In this document: in pieces, positions 40,724 to 48,808 of the stretch
How the letters are laid out: every line of letters begins with the position of its first letter
How positions within the stretch are numbered: the stretch's first letter is position 1
From: Sphingomicrobium nitratireducens
GTDB lineage: Bacteria > Pseudomonadota > Alphaproteobacteria > Sphingomonadales > Sphingomonadaceae
Assembly (NCBI RefSeq): GCF_026157035.1
Contig: NZ_JANJZA010000001.1
Coordinates: 165,001 to 229,000, forward strand
Direction: 5' to 3'
Length of the DNA stretch: 64,000 nt
Position numbers and translations under genes: made by a program
Notes under the pieces: generated by a model
What the model was told of the DNA's origin: nothing
Database searches by the model: none
What the model saw: only the letters and a program-made list of their open reading frames with translations

Positions 40724-40864
40724 ATGAAACGCGAATCGATTGCCACCCTCACCCGCCGCATCGACCGGCATGTCGCGCGCCGCCAGCCGCGCGTCCTTGC
40801 CCGTCGCGAACGCGACGTCCCGCTGGCGATGGACCGCATCGCGCGCGCCCTCGAGACGGCCTGA
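40724..40864 (+). CDS. Small basic hypothetical protein (46 aa)
   Basis: 46 residues starting MKRESIATLTRRIDRHVARR, very rich in Arg, ending ARALETA. GAGG lies about 10 bases before the ATG and codon usage is like that of its neighbours. A small inverted repeat (CGGGTTT/AAACCCG, 40879-40899) follows the stop and could be its terminator. No family is recognised, and it may not be expressed. The preceding 40553-40723 shows no other feature. Confidence 0.4.
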   Translation: MKRESIATLTRRIDRHVARRQPRVLARRERDVPLAMDRIARALETA

Positions 40865-40891
40865 TCGTTCACTCTGATCGGGTTTTTGATC

Positions 40892-40916
40892 GAAACCCGC
40901 CCGCCCTGCCCGCGTT
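40892..40916 (+). promoter_or_regulatory. Possible EcfG-type stress promoter upstream of dps
   Basis: GAAAC at 40892-40896, 16 bases, then CGTT at 40913-40916. The alphaproteobacterial general-stress sigma consensus is GGAAC-N16/17-CGTT, so only one base differs. It ends 36 bases before the dps ATG. Confidence 0.4.
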
Positions 40917-40952
40917 GGATTTGCAGACAGCAATCCCACGGGAGGGAATCGA

Positions 40953-41447
40953 ATGACGACCGCCGAGAAACTCGCGACTCCGACCGACCTCAAGTCGAAC
41001 AAGACCAAGGACGTCGCGACCGCGCTCAACGGCATTCTTGCCGACAGCTACGCGCTCTATCTCAAGACCAAGAATTTCCACTGGCATGTCTCGGGCCCGC
41101 ATTTTCGCGACTATCACCTGATGTTCGACGAGCAGGCGACCGCGATCCTCGCCACGACCGACCTCATCGCCGAACGCGTGCGCAAGACGGGCAACACGAC
41201 GCTGCGCTCGATCGGCGACATCGCGCGCACCCAGTCGATCAAGGACAATGACGAGAAATTCGTGTCTGCCGCCGACATGCTCAAGCAGCTGCGCGACGAC
41301 AATCTCGCGCTCGTCGAGAGCTTGCGCGAATTGAAGGACCTTGCCGACGAGGCCAAGGACAATGCGACCAGCGCCATCGTCGACGAATGGACCGACGCCG
41401 CCGAGGAGCGCGCCTGGTTCCTGTTCGAAGCCGCGCAGAACGCCTGA
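40953..41447 (+). CDS. dps: Dps ferritin-like DNA-protection protein
   Basis: 164 residues. The ferroxidase ligands are in KNFHWHVSGPHFRDYHLMFDEQ (His, His, Asp, Glu). A helical ferritin-like core follows, and a short Lys-containing N-terminal tail could bind DNA. It oxidises iron with peroxide and protects DNA in stress. GGGAGGGAATCGA precedes the ATG. The upstream EcfG-like promoter would place it in the general stress response. Confidence 0.93.
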   Translation: MTTAEKLATPTDLKSNKTKDVATALNGILADSYALYLKTKNFHWHVSGPHFRDYHLMFDEQATAILATTDLIAERVRKTGNTTLRSIGDIARTQSIKDNDEKFVSAADMLKQLRDDNLALVESLRELKDLADEAKDNATSAIVDEWTDAAEERAWFLFEAAQNA

Positions 41448-41511
41448 CCCCAATCGGCTTGCGCCCTCGCTCGAGTGCCCTCTAGGATAGCGCAACCGAG
41501 AGGGGGCGCGT

Positions 41512-43506
41512 TTGGCCGATCTGTTCATTTCCTATGCCCGGCATGACAGGGACAGGATCGAACGGCTCGCCTGCGCGCTCGAAGACGCCGGATATTCGGT
41601 CTGGTGGGATCACCATATCGACGCCGGCGACGAATTCGTCCGCGACATCGAGCAGGAACTGGCCGCCGCGCGCGCGGTCCTCGTCTGCTGGTCCGATGCG
41701 GCGAGCGCCTCGCGCTGGGTGCGCGACGAAGCCGAGATGGCCGCGCGCGACGGCAAGCTCGTCTCGGTGTCGCTTGACGGCGACGAACCGCCACTGGGGT
41801 TCAAGCAGTATCACGCGCTTTCGCTCAAGGGCTGGCACGGCAAGCCGACCGCGCCCGAATTCGAGGCGCTGCTGCGGGCCCTCTCCACCCGCCTCTCGGA
41901 CGCGCCCAAGGCCCCGCTGGCCAGCCCCCGGCCGACATCCAACTGGCCCAAGCTCGTGTTGGCAGGTGCGTTCGCAATCGCCTTGCTGGCGGCGCTGTTC
42001 GCCTGGGCACCATGGAGCGACGGCGGCGACGACGTCGTATCCGCTCCCACCGAGATCGCGCGCGGTTCGGTCGCCGTGCTGCCCTTCCGCGACCTGTCGT
42101 CGGACGGGCAGGACCACTTCGCCGACGGCATCGCGGAGGAATTGCTCAACGTGCTCGCCCGCGTCGACGGGCTGCAGGTCACGCCGCGCGCCTCGGCCTT
42201 CCGCTTCCGCGACCGCGAGGATTTGTCCCCGGGCGCCATCGCCGCCGAACTGGGCGTGCGCCACGTCATTGACGGCAGCGTGCGCAGCGACGGCGAGCGC
42301 GTGCGCGTAACCGCCCAGCTGATCGACGCCGAGACCGACCGCCAGCTCTGGTCTCAGAGCTACGATCGCGACCTGTCGATGGATTCGCTGTTCAAGGTCG
42401 AGGACGAGATCGCCCGCGCGATCGTCGCCGCGCTCGGCGCGGAGATGGATCTTGGGCACGCCGAAACGCTCAAGTTCGCCGCCGCCGCCGAGACCGACGA
42501 TCTTGCGGCCTATGATGATTACCTGCGCGGCCAGTCGCTCTTCTACGCGCGCAACGGCTACAATTATCAATCGATGCTCGCCGCCTATCGTTCGGCGGTG
42601 CGCCGCGATTCCGATTTCGGCAGCGCCTGGCTGGGGCTGGCGGGTGCGCTCTCGGTGTCCCCGACCTACGTCTCGCCCGAAGAATTCCGGACGGGCGGTT
42701 ATGCCGACGAAGCACGCCAGGCGATCGGGCGAACGCTCGAACTCAAACCCGACCTGCCGATGGCGCACGGGATCGGCGCCAATATCGAACTGCTGGAAGG
42801 CTATGACGCCGACACCATGACGCGCGCGATGATGCGGTTCGACCGCGCGCTCGACCTCGACCCCGACGAACCGCTCGCGCTCAATTGGCGCGCGCAGCTC
42901 AAGGCGACAATCGGCGATTTCGACGGCGCGCGCCGCGATATCGAACGAACCATCGCGCTCGACCCCGACGACACGGTCGCCCACCAGCTGGCGGTTGCGC
43001 TGGGCCTCTTCGAAGCCGATCTCGACGCCGCCCTCGCCGCGCAGCGACGCGCGAAGCGCTATTTGCCGACCCTCACCGACGCCTTGGCGCTCGCCCTCGT
43101 GCAGGCGGATCGCGGCGAGGAGGCCGACGAGATGCTGGCGGTGATCGGCGGCGATGCCGCCGCCTACCGCGCCCTCCTCGACAAGATCGCCTCCCGCCGG
43201 ATCGAGCCGGACGATGCCTATCGCGAACTCGAGGCGCTGCTCCCGCGACTGGGCGAGGACGTGCCGGCGATCATGACCCCGTTTCGCAAGCACATGGTGC
43301 GACGCTTCGACCTGCTCGCCGACATCGCCGAGGGGAATTTCCCGGTCTACTGGATGCAGGGCTGGCCGAGCTATCTCGACCACCCCGCGCGGTACGCGTT
43401 GATGATGAAACGGGACCTCGGCGCCTATTGGCGCGCCAAGGGCTATCCGCCCCATTGCCGCCGCATCCCGGCGCTGGCCGATGGTCGAGACTTCGAGTGC
43501 CGTTGA
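41512..43506 (+). CDS. TIR-TM-TolB-like-TPR transmembrane protein 1
   Basis: 664 residues starting at TTG after GAGAGGGGG. The N-terminal TIR domain (about 1-125) opens LFISYARHDRDRIERL. WVRDE (Trp69, Glu73) places a Glu exactly where SARM1-type TIR NADases have their catalytic glutamate. A single transmembrane helix follows (about 147-165), with Lys/Arg on the N-side and Asp on the C-side, predicting a cytoplasmic TIR. Next come a TolB-like domain (VAVLPFRDLSSDGQDHFADG, about 181-300), TPR-like repeats (about 320-580) and a conserved C-terminal cap with two Cys. An adjacent paralogue follows. Function unknown; signalling or defence is inference. Confidence 0.8.
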   Translation: MADLFISYARHDRDRIERLACALEDAGYSVWWDHHIDAGDEFVRDIEQELAAARAVLVCWSDAASASRWVRDEAEMAARDGKLVSVSLDGDEPPLGFKQYHALSLKGWHGKPTAPEFEALLRALSTRLSDAPKAPLASPRPTSNWPKLVLAGAFAIALLAALFAWAPWSDGGDDVVSAPTEIARGSVAVLPFRDLSSDGQDHFADGIAEELLNVLARVDGLQVTPRASAFRFRDREDLSPGAIAAELGVRHVIDGSVRSDGERVRVTAQLIDAETDRQLWSQSYDRDLSMDSLFKVEDEIARAIVAALGAEMDLGHAETLKFAAAAETDDLAAYDDYLRGQSLFYARNGYNYQSMLAAYRSAVRRDSDFGSAWLGLAGALSVSPTYVSPEEFRTGGYADEARQAIGRTLELKPDLPMAHGIGANIELLEGYDADTMTRAMMRFDRALDLDPDEPLALNWRAQLKATIGDFDGARRDIERTIALDPDDTVAHQLAVALGLFEADLDAALAAQRRAKRYLPTLTDALALALVQADRGEEADEMLAVIGGDAAAYRALLDKIASRRIEPDDAYRELEALLPRLGEDVPAIMTPFRKHMVRRFDLLADIAEGNFPVYWMQGWPSYLDHPARYALMMKRDLGAYWRAKGYPPHCRRIPALADGRDFECR

Positions 43507-43569
43507 TCGAGCCGCCCTTGCAAGGGCTAACCTGGCGCAACATAAGGGCAGGGCGAGGAGGACCGATTT

Positions 43570-45588
43570 CTGGCGGAAGTCTTCATTTCCTATGCGCGTG
43601 ACGATCGCGCCCTTGTCGAGCGGCTCGCCGAGACGCTGGAGGCCGACGGCCTGACCGTCTGGTGGGACCGCCACATCGAGGCGGGTCACGAATTCGCCCG
43701 CGACATCGAGGCGGAACTCGAGGCCGCCAAGGCCGTCATCGTCTGCTGGTCGAAGAGCGGCAGCGCATCGCGCTGGGTCAAGGACGAAGCGGGAATTGCG
43801 GCGGAAAGCGACAAGCTCGTCGCGGTGTCCCTCGACGGAAGCCCGCCGCCGATCGGGTTCAAGCAATATCACGCCCTTCCGCTCGAAGACTGGAGCGGCA
43901 AGCCCGGCGATGACGAGATGGCCGCCTTGTTGAGCGCGGTGCGACACCGCATCGATCCCGAGGATAAATCGCCCGCCGCACCCGCAGCGCGGGACCGTGC
44001 CAGCAGCATCTCTCGCGGCGCGATCGCTGCCGGAGCGCTGTTCTTCGCACTCGTCGCGGCGGTCGTCTTCATCTGGCAGCCGTGGGACAGCAGTGTTCCC
44101 TTTCCCGCCCCGCCGACGACCGCGACGATGGCCGAGGAGCAGACCTCGATCGCCGTCCTCCCGTTCGAAGACCTGTCGCAGGCCGGAGACCAGCAATTCT
44201 TCGCCGACGGGATTTCCGAGGAGATCCTCAACGTGCTCGCGCGTGTCGACGGACTGCGTGTCGCCTCGCGCACGTCGGCGTTCCAGTATCGCGGCAACGA
44301 CAAGCCAGTGCGCACCATCGCCAACGAACTGGGCGTGCGCCACATCCTCGAAGGCAGCGTGCGCACCTCCGGCAACCGCATCCGCATCACCGCGCAGCTG
44401 ATCGACGCCAACACGGACGAACATCGCTGGTCGCAGACCTACGACCGCGATCTCACCACCAGCGACCTGTTCGAAATCCAGGACGAGATCGCCAAGGGAA
44501 TCGTCGCGGAGCTCGGGAAACAGCTCGACCTGGGCAGTGCGGAAGCGATCCGCTTCGCCGCCGCCGCGGACACCGACAATCTTGCCGCCTACCAGGCGTT
44601 CCTGCGCGGGCAGGCCCTTTTCAACGATCGATCGGCGATCGGTGACTATCACGATGTGCTGGTGGAATTGCGCCGCGCGGTCGACCTCGATCCGAATTTC
44701 GCGCGGGCCTGGATCGGCCTTGCCAGCGCCTACTCCGTCTCGGAATCCTACCTTTCGGGCGACGATTACGATGCTGGGGATTATCCGCGACTGGCGCGTG
44801 AAGCCGTCGACCGAGCAATCTCGCTGGAGCCCGACATGGCGGCCGCCTACACTGCCAAGTCGAACGTCGGGCTGATGGGACGCTATGACGCCGCCAAGAT
44901 CGCCCAAGCGTACGAAGATCTGAACCACGCGCTCGCGCTCGACCCGCGCGATTCGCTAGCGCTCAATTGGCGGGGACAGCTTCTCTACGCGCTCGGCGAC
45001 CTCGAGGGGGCCTATCGCGACGGTCGCGCAGCCCTTGCGCTCGATCCGTCCGATACGGTCGCGTGGCAGATGATCGTCATGCTCGACGTCGTCCATGGCC
45101 GGCTCGACGAGGCCGTGAAGGCGACCGAAGAAGCGGGTCGTCCGCTGGGCATTACGCCTTCGCTGCTCGCCATGGCCCTGATCCAGGCCAAACGCGAAAA
45201 GGACGCCCTCAAGGTCATTTCCCTCAACCCGAACGTCCCGTCCAAAAAGACCTTTGCCTTCGTAAAGGCGGCGGCGACCCGCCAACTCACCCCGGCAGAG
45301 GCCCTCAAGGAGATCGCAAAGCTCCGCGGCCAGCCTCGCGTTGATCCCCGCAACATCGATCCGTTCACGCTCTACATGATCCGCGACTTCGACAGCCTCT
45401 ATGAAGTCCAACATGGCGTCTTCCCGATCTACTGGATGAGAAACTGGAAGGAATGGCTGCAGCACCCGGCTCGCTATGCCGAGATCATGGACATGGGGAT
45501 CGACGACTATTGGCGCGAGCGCGGCTACCCGCCGCAATGCCGGCCGATCGCCCCGCGCCCCGACGGCCGCGACTTCGTTTGCGACTGA
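43570..45588 (+). CDS. TIR-TM-TolB-like-TPR transmembrane protein 2 (CTG start)
   Basis: 672 residues if translation starts at CTG 43570, which has AGGAGG with an 8-base spacer. No ATG, GTG or TTG occurs in frame between the upstream TAA (43543) and GTG 43825, and that later start would delete the TIR domain. From CTG the protein aligns without gaps to the first paralogue: AEVFISYARDDRALVERL, Trp69 and Glu73 in WVKDE. A transmembrane helix (about 155-175), a TolB-like domain (IAVLPFEDLSQAGDQQFFAD), TPRs and the GYPPQCRPI...GRDFVCD cap follow. The two genes are 63 bases apart. Confidence 0.78.
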   Translation: MAEVFISYARDDRALVERLAETLEADGLTVWWDRHIEAGHEFARDIEAELEAAKAVIVCWSKSGSASRWVKDEAGIAAESDKLVAVSLDGSPPPIGFKQYHALPLEDWSGKPGDDEMAALLSAVRHRIDPEDKSPAAPAARDRASSISRGAIAAGALFFALVAAVVFIWQPWDSSVPFPAPPTTATMAEEQTSIAVLPFEDLSQAGDQQFFADGISEEILNVLARVDGLRVASRTSAFQYRGNDKPVRTIANELGVRHILEGSVRTSGNRIRITAQLIDANTDEHRWSQTYDRDLTTSDLFEIQDEIAKGIVAELGKQLDLGSAEAIRFAAAADTDNLAAYQAFLRGQALFNDRSAIGDYHDVLVELRRAVDLDPNFARAWIGLASAYSVSESYLSGDDYDAGDYPRLAREAVDRAISLEPDMAAAYTAKSNVGLMGRYDAAKIAQAYEDLNHALALDPRDSLALNWRGQLLYALGDLEGAYRDGRAALALDPSDTVAWQMIVMLDVVHGRLDEAVKATEEAGRPLGITPSLLAMALIQAKREKDALKVISLNPNVPSKKTFAFVKAAATRQLTPAEALKEIAKLRGQPRVDPRNIDPFTLYMIRDFDSLYEVQHGVFPIYWMRNWKEWLQHPARYAEIMDMGIDDYWRERGYPPQCRPIAPRPDGRDFVCD

Positions 45589-45619
45589 ACCGACGCCCGC
45601 CTGACGGGTTGAGGCTTGC

Positions 45620-47206
45620 ATGCGCGCGTTCAGCCAGCTTCTCGACGACCTGACCTATACGCGCTCGCGCAATGCCAAGCTCAAGCTGATCGGCGACTTC
45701 CTCAAGGCGACCCCCGACCCGGATCGCGGCATCGCGCTGGGCGTGCTGACCGGCGAGGTCGACATTCCCGCCGTCAAGCCCGCCACCATCCGCGCATTGG
45801 CCGAGGAGAGGATCGACCCGGTCCTGTTCAAGATGAGCCGAGACTATGTCGGCGACACGGCCGAGACCGTCTCGCTGCTGTGGCCGACCGCGGCCGACGA
45901 CCGCCCGGAGATCGACGACGGCACGATCGGCATCGCCGAGATCGTCGAGCGCCTGTCGGCCGCCAGCCGCAGCGACGCACCCGCCATCCTCGCCGACCTG
46001 CTCGACCACCTCGACGCGAGCGGCCGCTACGCCCTCCTCAAGACAGCCACCGGCGCGCTGCGCATTGGCGTGTCCGCGCGGCTCGCCAAGCAGGCGCTCG
46101 CCGATGCGTTCGGGATCGATGTCGAGGCGGTCGAGGAAGTGTGGCACGCGCTGGCCCCGCCCTACGAGGAACTGTTCGCCTGGGGCGAGGGCCGCGCCGA
46201 GCCGCCCGACGTCGCCGAGATGCCGGTGTTCCGCCCGTTCATGCTCGCCCACCCGCTCGAGGACGACCAGAAGATCGACCTGTCCGACTATGTCGCCGAA
46301 TGGAAATGGGACGGGATCCGCGTCCAGCTGGTGCGCGCGGGCGGCGAGACCCGTCTCTACAGCCGCACCGGCGACGATATCGGCGCGAGCTTCCCCGACG
46401 TGCTCGCCGCCTACGACCAAGACGGCGTGGTTGACGGCGAACTGCTCGTGCGCGGCGAAGCGCAAGGCGGGGAAGCCGGCAGCTTCAACGCGCTCCAGCA
46501 GCGCCTCGGCCGCAAGACGGTCAGCAAGAAGATGCAGGCGGACTACCCGGCCTTCGTGCGGCTCTACGACCTCCTGATCGACGGCAAGGAGGACCTTCGC
46601 GGGCTCTCCTGGTCGCAGCGGCGCGCGCGTCTCGAAGCCTTCATCGAGTATCTCCCCGAAGACCGCTTCGACCTTTCCTCGATCGTCGAGGCCGACAGCC
46701 TCGACGCGCTCGATGCGCTGCGCGAGGAAGCGCGCGATACCGGGGTCGAAGGCCTAATGCTCAAGCGGCGCGACAGCCGTTACGTCGCCGGGCGGCGCGT
46801 CGGCCTGTGGTACAAGTGGAAGCGCGATCCGCTCAACGCCGACTGCGTGATGATGTACGCCCAGCGTGGGTCGGGCAAACGCTCGTCCTATTTCTCCGAC
46901 TACACGTTCGGCTGCTGGACCGAGGAGGGCGAGCTGCTGCCCGTGGGCAAGGCCTATTTCGGGTTCACCGACGAGGAGCTGAAGAAGCTCGACCGCTTCG
47001 TGCGGCAGAACACCATCGCCCGATTCGGTCCCGTCCGCGAGGTCGAGAAAAGCCTCGTCCTCGAAGTGGCGTTCGATTCGATCCATGCTTCGAGCCGCCA
47101 CAAGTCGGGGCTCGCGATGCGCTTTCCGCGCATCAGCCGCATCCGCGACGACAAGCCCGCAGAGGAAGCCGACCGCATCGAGACGCTGCGCGCAATGGCG
47201 ACCTAA
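45620..47206 (+). CDS. ATP-dependent DNA ligase (bacterial repair type)
   Basis: 528 residues. An N-terminal alpha-helical DNA-binding domain, then the nucleotidyltransferase core with motif I EWKWDGIRVQL (Lys229 adenylation), motif III SRTGDDI, motif IV DGELLV, motif V GLMLKRRDS and an OB-fold (YFSDYTFGCWTEEGELLPVG). This matches the bacterial ATP-dependent ligase family that is usually encoded with an MBL-fold exonuclease and a Lhr-like helicase. Neither partner is nearby, so it appears to be an orphan. It overlaps the convergent GNAT gene by four bases (CTAA). Confidence 0.9.
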   Translation: MRAFSQLLDDLTYTRSRNAKLKLIGDFLKATPDPDRGIALGVLTGEVDIPAVKPATIRALAEERIDPVLFKMSRDYVGDTAETVSLLWPTAADDRPEIDDGTIGIAEIVERLSAASRSDAPAILADLLDHLDASGRYALLKTATGALRIGVSARLAKQALADAFGIDVEAVEEVWHALAPPYEELFAWGEGRAEPPDVAEMPVFRPFMLAHPLEDDQKIDLSDYVAEWKWDGIRVQLVRAGGETRLYSRTGDDIGASFPDVLAAYDQDGVVDGELLVRGEAQGGEAGSFNALQQRLGRKTVSKKMQADYPAFVRLYDLLIDGKEDLRGLSWSQRRARLEAFIEYLPEDRFDLSSIVEADSLDALDALREEARDTGVEGLMLKRRDSRYVAGRRVGLWYKWKRDPLNADCVMMYAQRGSGKRSSYFSDYTFGCWTEEGELLPVGKAYFGFTDEELKKLDRFVRQNTIARFGPVREVEKSLVLEVAFDSIHASSRHKSGLAMRFPRISRIRDDKPAEEADRIETLRAMAT

Positions 47207-47797: not shown

Positions 47798-48598
47798 TCA
47801 GCTCGCCGGCTTGAGGTTCACCGCGGCATGCTTGCCGCGCGAATCGACCTCGATGTCGAATTCGAATCGGTCGCCCTCGTTGATCGAGGGGAGACCGGCA
47901 CGTTCGACGGCCGAGATGTGCACGAACGCATCGGGCTGGCCGTCGTCGCGCTGGATGAAACCAAAGCCCTTCATGGCGTTGAAGAACTTGACCACGCCGG
48001 TCGCCGTCTCGCCGGTCAGCTCGCGCTTGTTGAAGCCGCCGCGATCGCCGGCACCGGCGCCGCCGCCGCGTTCGACCGCCATCGGCTCGCCATCGATGAC
48101 GAGGTTGGTCGCCGAGACGCGCCCGCCACGATCCACCAGCGTGAATTCGAGCGGCTGGCCGTCGGCCAAATCGCTGAGGCCGGCCTGTTCGACAGCAGAG
48201 ATGTGGACGAACACGTCGTCGCCACCATCATCACGCACGATGAAGCCGAAGCCCTTCTGCGGATTGAAGAATTTGACGACGCCTTTGCCTTCGCCGACGA
48301 CCTGGGGGGGCATCCCGCCACCGCCGCGGAAGCCGCCGCCACCACCGCCGCCGCCGCGATAGCCACCGCCACCGCCGCCGCCACGATAGCCGCCGCCACC
48401 GCCGCCGCCGTAACCGCCGCGGTCTTCATAACCGCCGCCGCCACCGCCGCCGCCGAAGCGATCGCCGCCATAGCCGCCGCCGGCGCCACGGTCCTGGAAA
48501 CCGCTGCGCTCGCCAAACTGATCTTCGCCGAAGAAACCGTCCCGCTTGTCGCGTCCGCGGCCACCGCGGTCGCCCTTACGCCCTCTGTCGAAACCCAT
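47798..48598 (-). CDS. Double cold-shock-domain protein with Gly-rich N-terminus
   Basis: 266 residues. After a basic start (MGFDRGRKGDRGGRGR) comes a glycine-rich region (about 38-95) with RGG-like repeats. Cold-shock domain 1 follows (GKGVVKFFNPQKGFGFI, about 104-167), then domain 2 (TGVVKFFNAMKGFGFI, about 199-262). Both carry the RNP1 and RNP2 motifs (KGFGFI and VFVHI or AFVHI), so it should bind single-stranded nucleic acid. The ATG at 48598 is preferred; the frame extends upstream without a better start. A 210-base divergent gap separates it from rnd. Confidence 0.87.
   Translation of the reverse strand: MGFDRGRKGDRGGRGRDKRDGFFGEDQFGERSGFQDRGAGGGYGGDRFGGGGGGGGYEDRGGYGGGGGGGYRGGGGGGGYRGGGGGGGGFRGGGGMPPQVVGEGKGVVKFFNPQKGFGFIVRDDGGDDVFVHISAVEQAGLSDLADGQPLEFTLVDRGGRVSATNLVIDGEPMAVERGGGAGAGDRGGFNKRELTGETATGVVKFFNAMKGFGFIQRDDGQPDAFVHISAVERAGLPSINEGDRFEFDIEVDSRGKHAAVNLKPAS
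48315..48485 (-). repeat. Imperfect CCG/GCC triplet repeats encoding poly-Gly
   Basis: A run of GCC/CCG triplets interrupted by TAG/CGA-type units encodes repeating Gly6-7 with Tyr/Arg or Phe/Arg spacers (YRGGGGGGG occurs twice). It is prone to length variation by slippage, in frame. Confidence 0.7.
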
Positions 48599-48808
48599 GC
48601 CTATCCAAACTTTGTCAGCCCCCGAATTCACGACCGTGGACGCGGGGACTCGTCGCGTCATCGGCCATGCGCAGCCTGTTTCGGCATGCGCACAGTCGCG
48701 CTTCATACAGGAAAAACCGCGAACGTCCTAGTGATTCCCTCGGGTGCGGCTGGCATGGTAGGGACGAAGCGACTAAGAGCGGCCCGAACCAAGCGCGAGA
48801 AGGACACC

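Follow-up and report, generated by a model that had tools for sequence, protein, structure and literature searches.

Two adjacent forward-strand genes, here called TIR-A and TIR-B, were analysed in a window of 64,000 nucleotides from Sphingomicrobium nitratireducens (RefSeq assembly GCF_026157035.1, contig NZ_JANJZA010000001.1, positions 165,001 to 229,000; positions below are counted from the first letter of this stretch). We propose that their products are probably single-pass inner-membrane one-component receptors, in which a periplasmic sensor of the CadC type would, upon a signal, trigger the cleavage of NAD+ by a cytoplasmic TIR domain. The proposal starts from the domain order, the match of the sensor to the CadC fold, a C-terminal tail that is shared across different N-terminal heads, an invariant glutamate, the expansion of the family in this lineage, and the finding that related genomes lack the pair at this site. 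Its further parts, which are conditional, would be the topology, cleavage of NAD+ by the TIR domains, their activation through clustering, and a function in defence or stress.

The two genes are separated by 63 bases. As the first-pass annotation of this DNA had described, both proteins carry an N-terminal TIR domain, one hydrophobic helix (residues 148-166 in TIR-A and 149-167 in TIR-B, the latter numbered from the Ala after its CTG start at 43570), a TolB-like region and tetratricopeptide repeats (TPRs). The TIR_2 family of Pfam was matched at E 3.2e-23 by TIR-A and at E 1.2e-22 by TIR-B, both proteins matched TPR families, and TolB_N gave a sub-threshold match (E 0.021) in TIR-B only. The identity between TIR-A and TIR-B is 48% over 675 columns. 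We gathered 199 distinct TIR proteins, of which 159, TIR-A and TIR-B included, were complete and had a TolB-like part; a helix lies between the two parts in 128 of them. Since the fusion of TIR and TolB-like parts recurs in 159 distinct proteins, it is not a product of chance.

AlphaFold models of both proteins (mean pLDDT 83.0 for TIR-A and 85.1 for TIR-B), proposed earlier as a check, were searched against solved structures. For each model, the four first-ranked entries were those of the periplasmic domain of Escherichia coli CadC, which aligned with the TIR-A model at Z 21.1 over 302 residues (rmsd 3.9) and with the TIR-B model at Z 20.9 over 303 residues (rmsd 4.2). Among the matches listed, beyond which others are possible, the next other fold stood lower in Z by nearly 4. 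Foldseek by itself also placed CadC at the top for TIR-A (E 8e-6). Identity to CadC within the structural alignments is just 9-14%, so the likeness is one of fold. The CadC sensor consists of an alpha/beta domain followed by TPRs (PMC9214523). Because the CadC periplasmic domain is the top solved match of both models, the region first described as a TolB/TPR sensor is, as modelled, a CadC-type sensor; the region and its repeats are present as annotated, and the CadC label describes them better.

CadC is a ToxR-like membrane one-component regulator that shares with TIR-A and TIR-B an N-terminal output domain, one helix (predicted here) and the same alpha/beta plus TPR sensor fold. It differs from them in its head, which is a winged helix in CadC and a TIR domain here, and in its cysteine pair (C208/C272), whereas the pair of TIR-A and TIR-B lies at the far C-terminus. 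The regulation of CadC involves a periplasmic disulfide (PMC3096576). Neither protein had a Trans_reg_C match in Pfam up to E 1, and TIR_2 is found at the N-terminus instead. TIR-A and TIR-B are thus CadC-like in sensor fold and likely topology, but are not members of the CadC family, because the DNA-binding head is absent.

The same sensor module was found behind other heads. An alignment named A2, made from TIR-A, TIR-B and 30 of 32 offered relatives (one without a helix), found matches of E 1e-50 or below in 70 of 289 genomes of the class, with at most a few candidates scored per genome; most of the matches listed, which are a part of all, covered the sensor part only. Among 19 matched genes examined, the head was a class III cyclase in 13 (5 by Pfam, 8 by sequence motif only), a multi-helix membrane segment in 4 (called by motif), a winged helix in 1 and a TIR domain in 1 (both by Pfam); three of the four multi-helix heads, given to Pfam, matched no known head family. 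The cyclase-headed and winged-helix proteins, alike to TIR-A and TIR-B in the sensor by profile and different in the head, we take to be of the COG5616 type. One protein of the source genome, L174, combines a winged-helix head (Trans_reg_C, E 4.5e-13) and a helix with this module. The two-cysteine tail motif, represented by C649 and C663 of TIR-A, occurs in eight distinct proteins among all open reading frames (ORFs) gathered, six of them TIR-headed, one with a winged helix (L295) and one with a multi-helix head (L283). In both models, each tail cysteine is predicted to lie in one of two short strands able to pair. As far as these sequences indicate, heads are exchanged on the CadC-type sensor module, with a winged helix, a nucleotide cyclase, a multi-helix membrane segment or a TIR domain in the head position.

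The multi-helix N-terminal segment precedes the sensor module in L283, L286, L287 and L290, and L283 ends in the cysteine tail of TIR-A and TIR-B. Two further TIR genes, at L068:6917-8863 and L068:10282-12243 (minus strand), encode a helix, have sensors unmatched by BLAST with the TolB parts of TIR-A and TIR-B, and carry six and eight cysteines, respectively, after the helix.

The pair is not unique: the source genome (2.27 Mb) contains 14 TIR_2 genes, 10 with a helix after the TIR domain and 4 without, and 11 of the 14 match the TolB part of TIR-A or TIR-B by BLAST. In the genus sample, a TIR_2 match was found in 52 of 61 genomes, with copy numbers from 0 to 18 per genome; in these lineages, up to 18 TIR genes are thus packed into a genome of at most some 3 Mb. 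Runs of two or more such genes in tandem are present in the source genome and in the relatives fetched. Among 80 loci from named records, 73 had no group above one, 5 had no complete TIR-TolB gene, one had a group of two and one a group of five. The group of five, on a Marinicaulis contig (Parvularculaceae; L095:1724-12134), is spaced by 2-3 bases from the last codon of one gene to the TIR start of the next, and its first four genes encode a helix and its last does not. As to the heteromeric pair suggested for TIR-A and TIR-B, there was no evidence either way. They constitute one of several tandem groups among the 14 paralogues and are simply each other's nearest paralogues among those compared, so that a special heterodimer is not supported.

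Two loci may be mentioned beside these paralogues. In the source genome, L069:8563-9705 (minus strand) encodes a TIR protein whose C-terminus resembles an FHA domain by eye, and adjoins apparent Ser/Thr kinase and PP2C phosphatase genes. At L072:9099-10817, a helix-less TIR-TolB gene lies between infB and truB (both by Pfam), with apparent rbfA and GNAT genes (by eye) also between these two.

The sensors diverge far more than the TIR domains. Mean pairwise identity among eight paralogues of the source genome was 56% for the TIR domain, 33% for the TolB part and 20% for the TPR/C-terminal part. In two pairs of the Marinicaulis array, the TIRs are 94% and 93% identical and the sensors 38% and 50%, over 199 and 187 residues. 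At fourfold-degenerate sites of the best Marinicaulis pair, 30/51 were alike in the TIR versus 20/68 in the sensor (Fisher p 0.0015), and silent sites of the other two pairs gave Fisher p values of 0.024 and 0.17. The array hints that sensors may have been exchanged or TIRs homogenised. When TIR identity was compared within and between genomes at equal sensor identity, the values were 0.484/0.422, 0.490/0.463, 0.574/0.517 and 0.556/0.568 (four bins, 39 proteins); the within-genome excess is only slight and is absent in one bin, and the evidence for sensor exchange is weak or mixed. Six helix-bearing proteins had discordant TIR and sensor partners at the chosen cut-offs, one of which, gene L074:7900-9393 of genome G077, is short (498 aa), with an end apparently out of frame. 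Gene conversion between TIR-A and TIR-B themselves was considered and rejected, as their silent sites are no closer in the TIR (20/42) than in the sensor (77/144).

A genome-neighbourhood survey of the pair, also proposed in the first-pass annotation, was run within the genus on stretches of 13-14 kb around the orthologous ligase gene of 16 genomes. TIR-A/TIR-B matches were absent from all 16 stretches. The dps gene adjoins the ligase gene in 10 of them, with 28-91 bases between the tblastn ends (44 bases in G240, whose ligase, at 84%, is the most similar among those listed), and no dps match was found at the ligase locus in the other 6. Because the pair is absent from all 16 relatives, and dps and the ligase gene are adjacent in 10, these alignments indicate that the pair was probably inserted at the dps-ligase site. 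Of the repeats of at least 14 bases that were listed (20 of the 22 direct families, and 19 inverted pairs), none pairs the two insertion junctions; no integrase search was made. Full-length relatives of TIR-A in named records, with 33-36% identity and the same tail, came from two Marinicaulis contigs and one contig of an alphaproteobacterial metagenome-assembled genome, and G041, of the same family as the source genome, gave a full-length profile match with 30% identity. Acquisition of the pair from outside the genus is plausible on these sequence comparisons.

An anti-phage function has to be weighed, in which abortive-infection receptors would sense phage at the envelope and arrest or kill the cell through NAD+ loss. 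We regard it as possible but rather unlikely. Thoeris, a related TIR NADase system, is active against phages. The patchy copy number, the divergence of the sensors, and the tandem arrays together with the insertion fit a fast-evolving role of this kind. SpbK, another related TIR NADase, acts against phages as well (PMC12847820). Against this function, the PADLOC matches of TIR-A and TIR-B cover the TIR part only (best 41.4 bits, no whole-model match), apart from one weak match to TIR-B residues 293-337, and 8 of 10 neighbour proteins had no PADLOC match. The neighbouring histidine kinase matched SduA by its receiver part only. The UvrD-type helicase beside the L068 copies matched GajB models, whose partner was not searched for; such matches are also expected from a housekeeping UvrD, and the helicase is taken as housekeeping. 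By Pfam, six neighbour proteins of several copies are a dps/ferritin protein, a DNA ligase, TruB, IF-2, a PAS histidine kinase and a Na+/H+ exchanger, and the neighbours scanned give no indication of a defence island at the TIR-A/TIR-B locus. Thoeris thsA was not found next to the TIR genes, where dps and the DNA ligase gene are the neighbours. No NCBIfam model was matched above its curated cut-off (ThcB4, for example, at 26 of 220 bits), PHROGs gave partial matches only (up to 36.5 bits), and a search of the genome for STALD gave no match, nor did the controls of that search. In addition, the cues of CadC are pH and lysine-related (PMC3096576, PMC9214523).

The catalytic potential of the TIR domains was assessed from motif and fold. 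Trp69 and Glu73, pointed out in the first-pass annotation, were seen in both proteins when TIR-B is numbered from its CTG. Conservation of the glutamate across relatives proved complete: E73 was E in 114/114 TIRs, which were collected without a motif-containing search pattern, drawn from the matches listed, and picked with a TIR profile that includes the Glu among its 107 positions. These distinct proteins had two origins: loci that the searches with TIR_2, TIR-A and the sensor gave in genomes of the genus and the family, and the surroundings of listed TIR_2 matches; the 80 loci found by a motif-containing pattern are outside the 114 TIRs and inside the 159 TIR-TolB proteins. Just four of 108 positions were invariant, namely F5, S7, W31 and E73, and W69 was W in 102/114. 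Among members with a TIR domain, a transmembrane helix and a TolB-like part alone, E73 was kept in 61/61 and W69 in 53/61. SPARTA and SARM1, both with NADase TIRs, were matched by the TIR parts of the two models at Z 14.5-16.5. A role of the WxxxE motif, as a requirement, is described for TIR NADases (PMC11374754). TIR-A and TIR-B are TIR-NADase-like in motif and fold, and their TIR domains are likely NADases, to judge from the residues conserved.

Several observations weigh against NADase activity. The TIR parts had their top fold match in the TIR of an animal receptor, TRR-2 of Hydra (Z 17), and the TIR of the adaptor MAL also reached Z 15-16; since receptor and adaptor TIRs score alike, the fold does not prove enzyme activity. 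W69 is missing in 8 of the 61 membrane-bound members. Moreover, the glutamate is present in more than 70% of all TIRs, is not always paired with activity, and is often seen as well in TIRs for which no activity has been reported (PMC7075850). The same observations speak for a TIR domain that serves as a non-catalytic scaffold, recruiting TIR proteins or adaptors by contact and tuning, for example, envelope or stress responses; the 4 helix-less TIR proteins of the genome could then pair with the membrane-bound ones. We consider such a scaffold unlikely, as invariance of E73 at one of only four such positions would be strict for a residue without a role.

With the bacterial TIR NADases SpbK, AbTir, Thoeris ThsB and SPARTA TIR-APAZ, TIR-A and TIR-B share the TIR fold and the WxxxE motif. 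AbTir, Thoeris ThsB and SPARTA TIR-APAZ are cytoplasmic. To our knowledge, the bacterial TIR proteins that have been studied detect infection from within the cell. SpbK recognises a phage portal protein there (PMC12847820), whereas TIR-A and TIR-B have a fused helix and CadC-type sensor.

The orientation in the membrane was assessed from several signals in the relatives. By linker length and hydropathy, the 159 TIR-TolB proteins comprised 128 with a helix, 26 without and 5 in neither class; these classes depend on hydropathy cut-offs, which gave 111 proteins with a helix for the charge test and 128 once linker length was added. In 81 clear-helix representatives (60% identity clusters), net charge fell from the segment before the helix to the one after it in 79, was the same in 1 and rose in 1. 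Cysteines after the helix were scarce, at 0.45 per 100 aa in 85 representatives versus 1.14 in 11 helix-less relatives, and the cysteine content of the TIR part was about equal (0.66 with a helix, 0.61 without). Their number was even in 53 of the 68 representatives having any, versus 6 of 11 helix-less relatives, which is a tendency and not a rule. A motif resembling a twin-arginine translocation (Tat) signal stands just before the helix in 62/128 membrane-bound relatives and in 27/85 representatives; shuffles of the same windows gave means of 1.8 and 1.15, respectively. The helices that follow this motif are less hydrophobic (mean 1.69 vs 2.32). Tat signals are typically weakly hydrophobic. 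The motif before an internal helix suggests that the folded sensor may be exported by an internal Tat signal anchor. Examples of a Tat-like twin-arginine motif immediately followed by an internal helix of weak hydrophobicity are L078, L216 and L233, among others.

Since the charge bias, the scarcity of cysteines, the Tat-like motif and the CadC fold match agree, these predictions support an N-in/C-out topology with the TIR inside and the sensor outside, as the first-pass annotation had held for the pair. It is not general, as the TIR and the sensor module follow each other without a helix in 26 of the 159 relatives; in these, both must therefore be on one side, and the helix-less class shows, so far as its sequences tell, that this module can function within the cell as well. 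Other points weigh against the assigned topology in the pair itself or in its relatives: TIR-A and TIR-B both lack the Tat-like motif, AlphaFold confidence is low at the helix in both models, the cysteine number after the helix is odd in 15 of the 68 representatives, and odd counts (1 and 3) were also seen in both winged-helix relatives examined. A sensor that is not periplasmic, the helix being a tether with TIR and TPRs both cytoplasmic or the hydrophobic stretch not being inserted, would accord with the helix-less relatives, the low model confidence and the 8 of 13 cyclase-headed relatives that have no stretch of hydropathy of at least 1.5 before the module, but is quite improbable, since the charge bias, scarce cysteines, Tat-like motif and CadC precedent all favour export.

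In the proposed receptor, the C-terminal CadC-type sensor would be placed in the periplasm and the N-terminal TIR in the cytoplasm, where it would replace the DNA-binding head of CadC. Candidate signals are a small molecule, a partner in the periplasm, a change in the envelope and an altered redox state of the tail cysteines. Perception of the signal would alter packing or oligomerisation through the single helix, and the TIR domains thus brought together would form composite active sites; the NADase of SpbK depends on self-association and composite sites (PMC12847820). NAD+ would then be cleaved to ADP-ribose or a cyclic isomer, leading to growth arrest or providing a messenger. If this is true, bacteria feed outside information directly into NAD+ chemistry via a periplasmic CadC-type sensor, which would be a bacterial parallel to the membrane TIR receptors of animals and would offer a concrete set of sensors for a ligand search.

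Animal Toll-like receptors resemble this arrangement in having an outer sensor, one helix and a cytoplasmic TIR (PMC7075850). They differ in the opposite chain order and in their leucine-rich repeats, in place of which a CadC-type sensor is found here; Pfam listed no leucine-rich-repeat family for either protein, and nothing indicates that the receptors as a whole share an ancestor. The TIR-sensor family is large and often duplicated, and has the appearance of a bacterial counterpart to immune receptors that span the membrane. We tentatively raise the possibility, which we would not rate as probable, of a receptor repertoire with Toll-like-receptor logic, in which many paralogues, partly in tandem, would combine a conserved TIR for the NAD+ signal with rapidly diversified or exchanged CadC-type sensors, and would differ by gain and loss among close relatives. 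Proteins of actinobacteria that begin with a TIR and end in TPRs have been mentioned (PMC7075850). In the open-access literature searched, no description was found of a fusion between a TIR and a periplasmic sensor of the CadC or TolB type, in line with the earlier statement that no characterised system has this layout. Automatic annotation of such proteins very likely exists. As far as found in that literature, TIR proteins with a CadC-type sensor are a widespread, uncharacterised class.

The features of the locus are collected in Table 1. The reading frame of TIR-B is open from just past a stop codon at 43543-43545. Its CTG start codon lies 8 bases 3' of GAGGAGG and is aligned with the position of the TIR-A start codon. 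The start at GTG 43825 given in the ORF list was rejected because most of the TIR domain would be lost. At the homologous start position of 138 relatives, the codon was ATG in 36, TTG in 31, GTG in 18 and CTG in 5 (12 commonest codons listed), and on account of these counts non-ATG starts look usual in this TIR family.

Table 1. Positions of the TIR-A and TIR-B genes, their parts and the flanking genes in the window
Feature	Positions	Strand	Remarks
dps/ferritin-like gene	40953..41447	+	left flank, outside the system
Purine-rich ribosome-binding-site-like stretch 5' of TIR-A	41498..41506	+	by eye
TIR-A gene	41512..43506	+	664 aa, TTG start
TIR-A TIR domain	41512..41829	+	residues 1-106
TIR-A WxxxE motif	41716..41730	+	W69 to E73
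TIR-A predicted transmembrane helix	41953..42009	+	residues 148-166; mean hydropathy 2.44; model confidence low there
TIR-A CadC-type sensor, alpha/beta (TolB-like) part and TPRs	42043..43059	+	residues 178-516 matched, by model
TIR-A C-terminal cysteines	43456..43500	+	C649 and C663, each in one of two short predicted strands
GAGGAGG, ribosome-binding-site-like, 5' of TIR-B	43555..43561	+	by eye
TIR-B gene	43570..45588	+	672 codons from CTG start
TIR-B TIR domain	43573..43890	+	
TIR-B WxxxE motif	43774..43788	+	
TIR-B predicted transmembrane helix	44017..44073	+	mean hydropathy 2.6; model helix 150-167
TIR-B CadC-type sensor	44119..45141	+	residues 183-523 matched, by model
TIR-B C-terminal cysteines	45538..45582	+	C656 and C670, numbered from Ala after CTG
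ATP-dependent DNA ligase gene	45620..47206	+	right flank, outside the system

Promoter and terminator scans of positions 40800-45800 gave no match, a result of weak informative value for such a genome. An open frame of 1148 aa on the minus strand (41482-44928) runs antisense to both TIR genes and was taken as an antisense artefact of high G+C. The minus strand at 47798-48706 encodes a protein in which two apparent cold-shock parts flank a long glycine-rich stretch (by eye).

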